DNA from: a virus
Virus record (IMG/VR): IMGVR_UViG_3300044982_000101
Span: 1 to 33,884 of that record
Strand: one strand, 5' to 3'
Length of the DNA stretch: 33,884 nt
Under the pieces are notes generated by a model, which worked only from the letters and a program-made list of their open reading frames with translations, was not told the origin of the DNA and made no database searches. Shown here in pieces: positions 21,481 through 26,557 of the stretch. The position numbers and the translations under genes are program-made. How positions within the stretch are numbered: the first letter of the stretch is position 1; each line of letters opens with the position of its first letter.

Positions 21481-21650
21481 CAGACCGCTCCGATGTGGGG
21501 AATCCTGCCGAACTGCGCGTAAAATTCCGCATCGCTCAACAGTTGCACTTTGTCACACTTGCCACAGGTCTTTGCCGCGTGCTCGACTCGTCCGACCAAG
21601 CACGGGCGCCAACGATGAGCACAAAAGAACTGGCGAAGACGTTGGATCAC
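21480..21650 (-). CDS. Small CxxC zinc-binding-type protein (56 aa)
   Basis: Start taken at the GTG at 21648-21650 because GGGAG lies 5 bases upstream and it overlaps the previous TGA as GTGA; a GTG four codons earlier has no such support. Sequence MIQRLRQFFCAHRWRPCLVG, then AAKTCGKCDKVQLLSDAEFYAQFG. Cys-x-His-x-Trp followed by CGKC resembles the short zinc-ribbon peptides (fxCxHxW...CxxCGxxr) common in phage genomes. No function is known to me. Sits in a run of four coupled small genes upstream of the portal. Confidence 0.65.
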   Translation of the reverse strand: MIQRLRQFFCAHRWRPCLVGRVEHAAKTCGKCDKVQLLSDAEFYAQFGRIPHIGAV

Positions 21651-21835
21651 TTTTTCTCCCACCGCTTACACCATCCGGTCAGATAGATCGGCGGCTTCAC
21701 CGCTTCGCAGCGTGTCCCGCTCATGGCTTCGATCACGTGCCGGCAGTTGTCGCAGGTTTGGCCGGTGTAGGTCGAAACCCGCTGATACTTCACTGCCGAG
21801 TGCGACAGCTTTTCGGATTCAGGGCGTTCGGCCAT
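21647..21835 (-). CDS. HiPIP-like four-cysteine small protein (62 aa)
   Basis: The sequence has the cysteine layout of high-potential iron-sulfur proteins: YTGQTCDNCRHV (C28, C31), TRCEAV (C43) and YLTGWCKRWEKK (C56), with the typical G-W-C near the end. In HiPIPs these four Cys hold a [4Fe-4S] cluster. Similar short proteins are often found in phages and annotated as HiPIP-like; their role is unknown. No signal peptide is present, unlike bacterial HiPIPs, so a periplasmic electron carrier is unlikely. It could simply be a zinc-binding protein. Start two bases after the previous gene's stop; end overlaps the next by GTGA. Confidence 0.65.
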   Translation of the reverse strand: MAERPESEKLSHSAVKYQRVSTYTGQTCDNCRHVIEAMSGTRCEAVKPPIYLTGWCKRWEKK

Positions 21836-22456: not shown

Positions 22457-23488
22457 TTACGACGGGTTATCGGCCAGATACGCCCCTTGCGCGGCGGTCG
22501 GGCCGTAGATGTAGATCTGGCCTTTCGATGTGGCGTCGGCGCCGAGTGACGTCGAGCCCACCGAGAGGCAATCCATCAGCACGATCATTCCGCCGGCTGC
22601 TGCGACCATCTTGATTGCGCCGGTGAGGGCGGTCGATCCCGACTGAATCGCGTTCAGGAAGGCGCAGCGCTTGAACAGGTTGTAGCGATCGACCGAGGAG
22701 GCTGCATTGGCCAGCAGAAAGAATTGGTTACCGTCACTGGAATCGATGGGGAAGGTGCAGTCTTCGAAAACGTTGCGCGTCGAGCCGTTCTGAAATTCGA
22801 CCGAGGCGTTGGCGTTGGTACGCTGCACCGTATCAAGGCCGATGTTGCAGTGATAGAAGGCATTTTCCTGCCCACCGCCCGAGATCAGCAGGTTCCGCGA
22901 GGTCGCGGAAGCCGATGCCGTGGTGTCGCCCATGCCTTCGAAATCGCAGTTCGCGAAGACGTTGCGCACGCCGGTGATCGTCATCAGGATGGCAGCCGCG
23001 ATGCCGATCTGGTTCGCCGCCGCGCCCTGAAACCAGCTGAGGTTCGAGAACAGGCAGCCGTTGCCGCTGACCGTGAAAAAGTTCGCGGTGATCACCAGGC
23101 CCGCGGTGAGCGGCGTCGCGATGCGCGCGCGCTGGGAAACTGCCGATGGCGCGCAGATGCCGAACAGGTGGGCCGCATTCTTCGACCAGGTAAAAGTCGT
23201 GATGCGCGCGGATCCGGTGGATTGCCCGTTGCCGATGAGCACCAGGGCGTCATTGAAGCCCGAGCGCAGCAGGGCATAGCCAGCCGCCAGGGATTGCACG
23301 GGACCGTGGCCGCCAGGCGTGACCGCCGCGGTGAGGCCGTCGTTGGTGTCGAGTCCGTTGACTGGATCGCAGTAGAAAATGTTTCCTGTGGTGCCGAAGC
23401 CGGCTTTGGCAATGGCCGCCTGGATCAGCTGCGCGGCCTGCAGGGTGAAGGCTCCGAAATTGACGATGCCCATCGGGGAAGTGTTCAT
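22457..23488 (-). CDS. Right-handed beta-helix virion protein (343 aa)
   Basis: Opens with NFGAFTLQAAQLIQAAIAKAG, then GNIFYCDPVNGLDTNDGLTAA and GPVQSLAAGYALLRSGFNDALVLIG: the pattern (yyVdpxnGsDxNdGlsxxxaxxtlaaA...ndvixl) that opens pectate-lyase-like beta-helices. The following repeats (FFTVSGNGCLFSNLSWFQ, RNVFANCDFEGMG, ENAFYHCNIGL, RNVFEDCTFPID, YNLFKRCAFL) are rungs with an N-x-F-x-x-C-x-F pattern. This is a trimeric-spike or head-fibre fold. No catalytic residues for a lyase are evident. Encoded between terminase and portal rather than with the tail fibres, so a head-surface protein is likely. AAGGAA precedes the ATG. Confidence 0.75.
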   Translation of the reverse strand: MNTSPMGIVNFGAFTLQAAQLIQAAIAKAGFGTTGNIFYCDPVNGLDTNDGLTAAVTPGGHGPVQSLAAGYALLRSGFNDALVLIGNGQSTGSARITTFTWSKNAAHLFGICAPSAVSQRARIATPLTAGLVITANFFTVSGNGCLFSNLSWFQGAAANQIGIAAAILMTITGVRNVFANCDFEGMGDTTASASATSRNLLISGGGQENAFYHCNIGLDTVQRTNANASVEFQNGSTRNVFEDCTFPIDSSDGNQFFLLANAASSVDRYNLFKRCAFLNAIQSGSTALTGAIKMVAAAGGMIVLMDCLSVGSTSLGADATSKGQIYIYGPTAAQGAYLADNPS

Positions 23489-23569: not shown

Positions 23570-23779
23570 CTATTTCGTGTGGTTCTGCGGAAAGATCGCC
23601 AGGCGCTCGGCGAGCACCGCGGCATATTGCTTCATCAACTCCAGTTCGCGGCGCAGCAGGTCCTGGTGCTCCGCCGGCAGCGTGAGAAAAATCTTCTCTT
23701 CGACGAACTGCGCCGCGGCGGCGAGCTTGGCTTCAAGTTGCTGCTTTTCGCGGAACACTTTTTCGACGTGCGGTTCCAT
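23570..23779 (-). CDS. Acb2/Tad1-hairpin-like protein, candidate cyclic-nucleotide sponge
   Basis: 69 residues: HVEKVFREKQQLEAKLAAAA, QFVEEKIFLTLPAEHQDLL, RRELELMKQYAAVLAERLAIF. This matches the pattern I remember for the Acb2/Tad1 hairpin family (RVxxEKxxLxxKxxxLxxFixxxxFxxLxxxEQxLLxxQLxxMxxYxxvLxxRI): two antiparallel helices of the same length and spacing. Phage Acb2 forms hexamers that bind CBASS cyclic di- and trinucleotides and so block host defence; Tad1-type proteins bind Thoeris signals. It is encoded among packaging genes and overlaps the previous gene by one base (TGATG), so it would be made late. In T4 and Pseudomonas phages acb2 likewise sits among ordinary genes. Family call fairly sure, ligand unknown. 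Confidence 0.7.
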   Translation of the reverse strand: MEPHVEKVFREKQQLEAKLAAAAQFVEEKIFLTLPAEHQDLLRRELELMKQYAAVLAERLAIFPQNHTK

Positions 23780-24033
23780 CAGTAAAAACCTCGGGCTCGT
23801 TGCATCAGCGCGTTCTGGGGCTGCTGTGGCGGCATGGGCGTCATCGGTGGCGCTCCCGCCATCGCTGGCCGTTGTGGCATGCGTGCGCCCTGCATCGGCA
23901 TTCCCATTCCCACTCGGGGCTGGGCCGGCATCGCGGTTCCCACGGGCGCGGCACCTGGTTGCATCGGTTGGCCTGGCATCGGTTGCGGAGCGCCGGCACG
24001 TTGCGCGAGAACGTTTTGCAGGGGTGCGATCAT
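23779..24033 (-). CDS. Pro/Met/Gln-rich low-complexity protein (84 aa)
   Basis: MIAPLQNVLAQRAGAPQPMP followed by a Pro-Met-Gln-Ala tract (MGMPMQGARMPQRPAM, PMTPMPPQQPQNALMQRARGFY). Only the first 12 and last 12 residues look ordered; both contain a Q-R-A/AR motif (NVLAQRAG and ALMQRARG), like two short linear motifs joined by a flexible linker. Lies 3 bases after the terminase stop. Similar disordered proteins are seen at this place in environmental podoviruses; function unknown. Confidence 0.6.
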   Translation of the reverse strand: MIAPLQNVLAQRAGAPQPMPGQPMQPGAAPVGTAMPAQPRVGMGMPMQGARMPQRPAMAGAPPMTPMPPQQPQNALMQRARGFY

Positions 24034-24036
24034 CGG

Positions 24037-25560
24037 TCAGTTCCAGGGAGAGTGCTTCGGTTTTGAACTGGAGGGCGTCGATGGTTTGCGCGGGGCAACC
24101 GGCATGGCAAACGTTAGAGCCAGGGCGTCGCCATCGTCGGGCGAACTGGAGTCTGCGCCCATTTTCGCCAGGCGCTTTTTCATCACATCCTTGGGCTCAA
24201 GCTTCACGCGCTGCAGGCGGTCGGAAACCAGTATCGGTTTCGAGAGATCCGCTTCGAGGCCGGGATCTTTGTCGATGGCGCCGCCCGATTCGAGCCAGGC
24301 TTTCATCTTTCCCCACATCTCATCGCGGCGATAAGCAAACTTGGGATCGGTCGAGTCCTGGCCGAAGTTCACTTCCATGACATTGGTGTGGCCGAGGGCG
24401 CGCAGCCGTGCGGCCACCGGGCCGGCAATGCCAGCGGAGTCGCAAAACAACATCGCAATCTTTTCCTGGTTGGGACCGTAGCTCCGCGAGAGTACGTCGG
24501 CGAGCTTGCCGATCATCACCGCGGGCTGGCGAGTGAATTCTCCTTTGACTTTGATCGAGGGGATCGAGCGCGCGTCGTGTCCTTTGCGAAATCTAACGAC
24601 GTTATCGTCAGCACCGCCCCACGCAAAGTCGACACCGGCCACCAGGGGATCATCAGGGAGAGACCGAGCAGCCCTGCGCTGAGCTTCCTGAATTGTCGCG
24701 AGGTCAATGTATTGCCCGGAGGCGGCGCGAGGTGGCAACCCACGGACACGGACTCTAAAGAAGTCAGAGTCCTCGCCATAATCCGCTTCCCATTCGGCAA
24801 TTTCATCTTTGTTCGTGCCTTCGACTGTGCGGGAGTCGATGACATAAGTTTTCCAGCGATGGCGCTGGTTGCCGTGGGTGCAATCGTAGAAGTCTCCCGA
24901 GTTGAGCGTGGGGTTGCCGAACTTGAACCAGAGGATTTCCGTGTCTGCATCGGTGAGTGCTCCTCGTCCGACTTCGGCGGAGATGATCGAGGCAATTTCC
25001 GAAGCCTCGTCCATGATAATCACGATGCGCTTGCCCTGATTGTGGGCGCCGGCGAAGGCCTGGGCATTTTCTTCGGACCAGGGATTGAAATCACAGCGCC
25101 AGGTGCGATCGTGCGCGTCATCGCGGCTCTTGATCGATGCGACGTTCACTTCCCATTGCCCGGCGGTGAGCGCCATACGGAACCACTTGTCGCATTCCGG
25201 CTGCGTCTTGGTGTCGAGCTGGCCTTTGGTGTTGGCAGTGACGATCACCCGCGAATCGCCGAAGGTGTCGAGCGCCCAGCCGATGATCCAAGCGACGATG
25301 GTCGATTTGCCGATACCGTGCCCGGAGCTCACCGCGGCCTTGAATGGGGTGAAGCGCGTGTCCGGATTCTGCAGGTGGTCGCCCACATCTTTCAGGAGTT
25401 GGGCCTGCCAGGTGCGCGGGCCGGCATGTTTTTCGAGCGGCTTGTCGGCTTCGAGCCAGGGGTAAACGTAATTCACATACCCCAGCGGATCGTGGGCGAA
25501 GGCACCGATGTCTTCGGCGATCATTTCCAGTTCCTGCGGGCTGAGGGCTGTGGTGCTCAT
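24037..25560 (-). CDS. terL: Terminase large subunit
   Basis: 507 residues, full length. ATPase: Walker A SSGHGIGKST at residues 78-87, Walker B IVIIMDE at 179-185 with the catalytic Glu. Nuclease: VAGVDFAWGGADD with Asp about 311, then MLFCDSAGIAGPVAARL and a terminal SSPDDGDALALTF, giving the three Asp positions of the RNase H-like fold. The N-terminus (FAHDPLGYVNYVYPWLEADKPLEKHAGPRTWQAQLL) is that of the group of TerLs with a GPRxWQ adenine-binding region. Binds portal and pumps and cuts DNA. The ATG overlaps the small-subunit stop as ATGA, so the pair is co-translated. Whether it packages by headful or at defined ends cannot be told from this sequence. Confidence 0.95.
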   Translation of the reverse strand: MSTTALSPQELEMIAEDIGAFAHDPLGYVNYVYPWLEADKPLEKHAGPRTWQAQLLKDVGDHLQNPDTRFTPFKAAVSSGHGIGKSTIVAWIIGWALDTFGDSRVIVTANTKGQLDTKTQPECDKWFRMALTAGQWEVNVASIKSRDDAHDRTWRCDFNPWSEENAQAFAGAHNQGKRIVIIMDEASEIASIISAEVGRGALTDADTEILWFKFGNPTLNSGDFYDCTHGNQRHRWKTYVIDSRTVEGTNKDEIAEWEADYGEDSDFFRVRVRGLPPRAASGQYIDLATIQEAQRRAARSLPDDPLVAGVDFAWGGADDNVVRFRKGHDARSIPSIKVKGEFTRQPAVMIGKLADVLSRSYGPNQEKIAMLFCDSAGIAGPVAARLRALGHTNVMEVNFGQDSTDPKFAYRRDEMWGKMKAWLESGGAIDKDPGLEADLSKPILVSDRLQRVKLEPKDVMKKRLAKMGADSSSPDDGDALALTFAMPVAPRKPSTPSSSKPKHSPWN

Positions 25561-26011: not shown

Positions 26012-26557
26012 TTATTTGGGGCTGATTTTCCTCAGCGCGCGGCGATATTTTTCCCGCGACACTGTCGGATTGCTGTGCAGGTAGTGCTCCAGCGAGCGCA
26101 GGCTTTTGTGTCCGGAAATATCCATGATCTCCCGCGTGCTCAATCCGTTAGCGTCCAGGTGAGTGAGAAGTGAAGCTTTCAAGGTGTGCGGATGCGACAG
26201 AATTTCCGACAAACCCGCCAGCTCGCCGTAGTGGTGAACCCGGCGCTGGAAGGTCCGCGTGGAGATCGGGAACAGACGATGCTTTCGGGGTGTGGAACGG
26301 CACAAAGCAAGCAGCGCCGGCCGCTCATTTAGAAGTGGATCGTCGTTCACTTCAAGCTGCGCTCGCTCCGGCTTGGAATGCTTCCCGCGCTGCACCACGA
26401 GGTAGTCTCCGACGATGTTATCTGCCGTCAATCCAACAGCTTCGTGCGCCCGAAGGGCATGCTGAAAAGTCACACACAGCAGAAGCCAATCTCGCCGGTT
26501 GCGGTCCCAGGCGCACTGCAAAAGCTGCCGAACTTCGGAAAATGAAAAGCAGTCCAT
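26012..26557 (-). CDS. Short tyrosine recombinase, FimB/FimE-like size, catalytic domain only
   Basis: 181 residues with no N-terminal core-binding domain. Catalytic set: Arg36 in FQHALRAHEAVGL (box I), Lys59 in QRGKHSKP, His124 and Lys127 in SHPHTLKASLLTHL where the usual box II is H-x-x-R, His150 in ISGHKSL and the nucleophile Tyr159 in LEHYLH. So box II Arg is replaced by Lys, a variant I have seen in FimB-like and phage-borne short recombinases with HPHxLKH. It would bring about integration, inversion or resolution at short sites. Adjacent to the terminase pair and next to a 7-bp inverted repeat (26569-26594). The start at 26555-26557 has no Shine-Dalgarno. Temperate life is likely but not proven. 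Confidence 0.85.
   Translation of the reverse strand: MDCFSFSEVRQLLQCAWDRNRRDWLLLCVTFQHALRAHEAVGLTADNIVGDYLVVQRGKHSKPERAQLEVNDDPLLNERPALLALCRSTPRKHRLFPISTRTFQRRVHHYGELAGLSEILSHPHTLKASLLTHLDANGLSTREIMDISGHKSLRSLEHYLHSNPTVSREKYRRALRKISPK

Follow-up and report, generated by a model that had tools for sequence, protein, structure and literature searches.

A divergent member of the phage helical-hairpin family crAss001_48 (PF21825) behind a terminase gene, with a possible family-level link to immune-signal sponges

Directly behind its terminase large subunit gene and a short partner ORF, the viral record IMGVR_UViG_3300044982_000101 (33,884 nucleotides, analysed in full and here called the window) encodes a 69-aa protein on the minus strand (23570..23779), and the locus raises the question of what this small protein is and what role it may have in such a position. 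A preliminary description had placed it in the Acb2/Tad1 hairpin family (PF24729), whose members bind cyclic di- or trinucleotides and, for Tad1, gcADPR. The ORF comprises 69 codons beginning with ATG, and in the sequence TGATG this start is overlapped by the TGA stop of an 84-aa ORF rich in proline, methionine, and glutamine (23779..24033, minus strand), which begins in the same run after a gap of 3 bp behind the terminase large subunit gene (24037..25560, minus strand). The terminase was assigned by matches to phrog_2 (E 1e-34) and phrog_5902 (E 4e-59) and by tblastn, with 42-46% identity to phage terminases, and the 84-aa ORF had no match in Pfam or PHROGs. The next gene downstream, 81 bp past the 69-aa ORF, is a 343-aa ORF (22457..23488, minus strand) with a best Pfam or PHROGs family match of only E 0.6.

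The order of terminase, Pro/Met-rich ORF (96 aa in that contig), 69-aa ORF, and 343-aa ORF (96.5% DNA identity) is conserved in a second viral contig, L001, where the counterpart of the 69-aa protein is 96% identical. Between the two copies of the 69-aa gene, five of the eight changed codons are synonymous and six of the nine base changes fall in third positions. As read from the sequence, the ORF is a genuine gene, coupled to the 84-aa ORF by overlap. On this sequence-level reading, the preliminary description was right to treat it as coupled to the packaging run, given the TGATG overlap behind the terminase. Two other ORFs of the window are recorded here as observations. A 181-aa integrase-like ORF (26012-26557, minus strand; phrog_1, E 8e-12) adjoins the terminase run, is shorter than usual integrases, and has a related ORF at that place in L001, and a 62-aa ORF (21647-21835, minus strand) contains four cysteines and has a weak similarity to the high-potential iron-sulfur protein family PF01355 (19.5 bits, below the cut-off of 22).

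The 69-aa protein is a clear but divergent member of PF21825 (crAss001_48), an uncharacterised phage family and the one significant Pfam family for this protein (E 2e-11; 44 bits against a curated cut-off of 24.8; profile positions 1-60 of 61), and it also matches phrog_774 in PHROGs (E 1e-12). An alignment of 62 PF21825 relatives from viral contigs has the pattern PHQQRVV.E...L..K...L..F........L......L..Q...M..Y...L..RI..F, with 16 near-invariant columns (P3, H4, R7, V8, E11, L15, L22, F25, L42, Q45, M49, Y52, L56, R59, I60, and F63). The window protein retains 12 of these (P3, H4, V8, E11, L15, F25, L42, M49, Y52, L56, R59, and F63) and differs at the other four (R7K, L22A, Q45E, and I60L). 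The family namesake, Gp48 of Bacteroides phage crAss001 (annotated 'shock protein C'), belongs to phrog_774 and was among the top named fold matches in a library of predicted viral structures. The hairpin and the stand-alone length are common to this group and the window protein, and most PF21825 members, including that of the window, are stand-alone proteins of ~64-70 aa. The window protein differs from the phrog_774 type in that it is without the typical N-terminal module (see below), and it is set apart from other PF21825 members by the place of its gene, just past the terminase large subunit gene and next to the Pro/Met/Gln-rich ORF. Neither the protein nor a profile of its family had a significant match among PDB sequences, PADLOC gave no match, and the literature searched contained no mention of the family under its name or accessions. 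A FliG_C match (E 0.043) lay under its cut-off and was taken as chance coiled-coil similarity.

The preliminary description had based its assignment on a two-helix pattern, and the shape itself is borne out by structure prediction. An AlphaFold2 model built with the 62-sequence alignment (mean pLDDT 91.6; pTM 0.76) has helices at residues 3-27, 29-33, and 36-66, that is, a predicted hairpin of two long helices joined by a short one. Acb2 consists of two long antiparallel helices and one short N-terminal helix (PMC12043709), whereas the short helix of the window model is between the two long helices and not N-terminal. As modelled, the hairpin is a generic fold: a search against the PDB brought up designed helical bundles and coiled-coil hairpins of unrelated proteins, and no match reached E < 0.001. 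Acb2 (PDB 8H2J) was not among the fold matches listed, though for a two-helix hairpin this excludes nothing.

The sequence pattern on this shape is that of PF21825 and not that of Acb2/Tad1. PF24729 did not match the 69-aa protein at E values up to 1, nor anything in the whole record at E values up to 10. For the comparison of profiles, two PF24729 alignments were used, one of T4 Vs.4 relatives found from phage EcS1, the first member of which matches the Vs.4 structure 7uq2 (E 1e-17), and one assembled independently from relatives of the copy in LASTA. These two sub-families recognised one another in hhalign with 99.2% probability, a positive control against which the crAss001_48 alignment reached only 0.2% and 0.7%, with only 10 to 13 columns aligned. 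The conserved columns of one sub-family (GYR.L...EI..MN..K ... RW...G.TDLQ.GIM..VRA.A.P) and of the other (GYKPHT...I..VN.IK ... LKEASMWACRAVFQP) are absent from the window protein, and no conserved column of PF24729 is common to PF21825. Because there is no PF24729 profile match and the hhalign probability is near zero, the Acb2/Tad1 label is wrong; a profile search had been proposed with the label as its own check, and the outcome speaks against it. The Acb2/Tad1 hairpins (PF24729; T4 Vs.4, PDB 7uq2) are likewise small and phage-encoded, with two long antiparallel helices as also predicted for the window protein, but have no detectable sequence relation to PF21825 and differ from it in their conserved columns.

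Relatives of the window protein offer a different route to a function. In proteins of the phrog_774 type, the hairpin is preceded by an N-terminal module of ~75 aa (YIGTK...GYLVEY...SWSP..VFE.AY) for which there is no Pfam model. Among 41 proteins with this module, 32 continue into Tad2 (Tad2-like, PF11195, Thoeris anti-defense 2) and seven into crAss001_48, a ratio that is no estimate of frequency, as the set was gathered with a crAss001_48-bearing query. Tad2 thus occupies the same slot as crAss001_48 behind the same module, despite being a different domain that contains beta strands and assembles as a tetramer (PMC12043709). The two domains are also fused, in two architectures and with both domains over their Pfam cut-offs: a single 228-aa protein consists of the N-terminal module, Tad2, and crAss001_48 (L249:9500-10183; near-identical in L250 and counted as one event), and a 259-aa protein has another N-terminus, followed by Tad2 and crAss001_48 (L254:1254-2030). 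Fusions with Phage_gp49_66 (PF13876) are also frequent, and this domain, absent from the window, is the commonest fusion partner and neighbour of crAss001_48. A model of the N-terminal module with its hairpin (from L006; pLDDT 94.3) predicts a beta-beta-alpha-beta-beta-alpha fold for the module, and its PDB matches span the hairpin part only, with none for the fold of the module. The module is found before Tad2 or crAss001_48 in P0001 (L003:5767-6189) and in L004-L055, and in two further proteins (L005:4001-4522 and L029:3947-4456) the C-terminal part after it belongs to neither Tad2 nor crAss001_48.

Known sponge genes also occur as neighbours of crAss001_48 genes. Tad2 genes adjoin them in L006/L007/L008, L131, L311, L320, and L330, and PF24729 genes do so in L149, L193, and L199/L200 (= L302/L303), the genes of the two families overlapping in the last of these. 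Across 119 distinct loci that were not selected for Tad2, four Tad2 genes and 15 Phage_gp49_66 genes were found; with a distance limit of 600 bp, crAss001_48 was near three of the former (p 0.004) and 14 of the latter (p 1.6e-13). A test of nearness over whole contigs gave a combined p of 0.001 but leans partly on short contigs, and the stricter 600-bp test is preferred. The link of crAss001_48 is not specific to sponges, since its strongest partner is Phage_gp49_66, itself without known function, and most members have no sponge partner (Tad2 in one and PF24729 in four of 49 records). A scan of genome contigs yielded only four loci, too few for prophage statistics. Phage_gp49_66 is fused to crAss001_48 or located within 600 bp of it in L108, L144, L269, L081, L320, and L330, and could be part of one accessory cassette with it. 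Two further arrangements were observed among the loci: two different crAss001_48 genes in tandem (L092:3947-4569), and a small operon encoding two sponges, in which an Acb2/Tad1-hairpin gene comes immediately after a Tad2 gene (L203 and L205, 1221-1695).

In many relatives, the crAss001_48 domain would thus be an exchangeable part of a shuffling set that includes the N-terminal module, Tad2, the Acb2/Tad1 hairpin, and Phage_gp49_66. The parts of this set with known function are sponges, and it is on this basis, together with the two architectures of Tad2 fusion, the shared slot behind the N-terminal module, and the Tad2 and PF24729 neighbours, that an anti-defence role is proposed. Sponges sequester signals and do not degrade them, with Tad1 and Acb2 acting as hexamers and Tad2 as a tetramer (PMC12043709), and, as Acb4 illustrates, a protein of unrelated fold can also be a sponge (PMC11722364). 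A sponge-like role is possible at the level of the family, on indirect grounds other than those of the preliminary description. For the window protein, we tentatively favour, at somewhat less than even odds, the reading of a small, oligomeric accessory anti-defence protein that would act on nucleotide second messengers by which host immunity signals (Thoeris- or CBASS-type). The protein would either be the sponge or supply a helical module that cooperates with one, Tad2 for instance. In the strict sense of a sponge or sponge module, the proposal is rather unlikely to hold for this protein. A wider conjecture, similarly doubtful, is that PF21825 as a family consists of immune-signal sponges not yet recognised as such, or of a module that such sponges require, in which case the Tad2-crAss001_48 fusions would be two-part sponges taking more than one signal. 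A candidate working surface would be formed by the conserved polar residues P3-H4-(R/K)7-E11 at the N-terminal end of helix 1 and R59 close to the end of helix 2; as deduced from the helix limits and not from coordinates, these residues would come together where the hairpin is open.

The strongest competing explanation is that the hairpin is a generic oligomerisation or adaptor element that only multimerises small phage accessory proteins, without binding a ligand itself. The folds it matches are indeed those of designed helical bundles and of coiled-coil hairpins of a generic kind, and the domain is fused to such unrelated modules as Tad2, Phage_gp49_66, and the N-terminal module; yet most members, that of the window included, stand alone at ~64-70 aa, and P3, H4, E11, and R59 are conserved past the needs of a plain coiled coil. 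Such a role is possible, if on the unlikely side.

A second explanation, that the 69-aa protein is a packaging or virion accessory acting with the coupled terminase, draws on the position of the gene. Besides the overlap with the run behind the terminase in the window, the PF21825 gene of FBKp27 precedes the terminase by ~1.3 kb, that of CSP3 separates portal from capsid, and that of Motura follows the head-tail connector. Elsewhere, however, the placements are early or metabolic: the neighbour is rIIB in EcS1 and the NTP reductase gene in vB_SdyM_006, and MW202655, distantly related by its portal, has the gene in its replication region near repA, parB, and DNA polymerase. PF21825 was found in none of seven terminase or portal relatives of the window phage, which, with the early placements, makes a packaging role improbable. 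The window record contains no Tad2 (PF11195), no PF24729, and no Phage_gp49_66, and no Tad2 is present in the 69-aa protein itself. Given the seven relatives without the gene, the window without these partners, and the varied placement elsewhere, the gene looks like an acquired, mobile accessory gene in a late operon rather than a packaging component.

A nucleic-acid-binding or regulatory hairpin is a still weaker candidate and quite improbable: the second Foldseek match was the C-terminal DNA-binding coiled coil of Uup (TM 0.77 on the query), but at E 0.87 this match is not significant, it is among unrelated hairpins of equal score, and the PDB search gave no sequence relation. That the protein is after all a true, highly diverged Acb2/Tad1 hairpin, as its small size and overall two-helix shape and the PF24729 neighbours of the family might suggest, is extremely unlikely in view of the profile and profile-profile tests with their working control, the lack of any shared conserved column, and the presence of PF21825 and PF24729 as distinct genes in the same phage or contig (EcS1, LASTA, L149, and L302).

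The tempting but false label of Acb2 is thereby corrected for this gene. What is newly recognised is a divergent member of PF21825, the family being already known. As one member of an uncharacterised family, the gene is in itself unremarkable; its relatives give a first testable hint of what that family does. PF21825 is spread across crAss-like, T4-like, N4-like, jumbo, and temperate phages, in which its domain is variously fused to, swapped with, or adjoining known sponges. If the sponge reading of the family is true, a widespread class of sponges, or a widespread sponge module, would be added to those already recognised.
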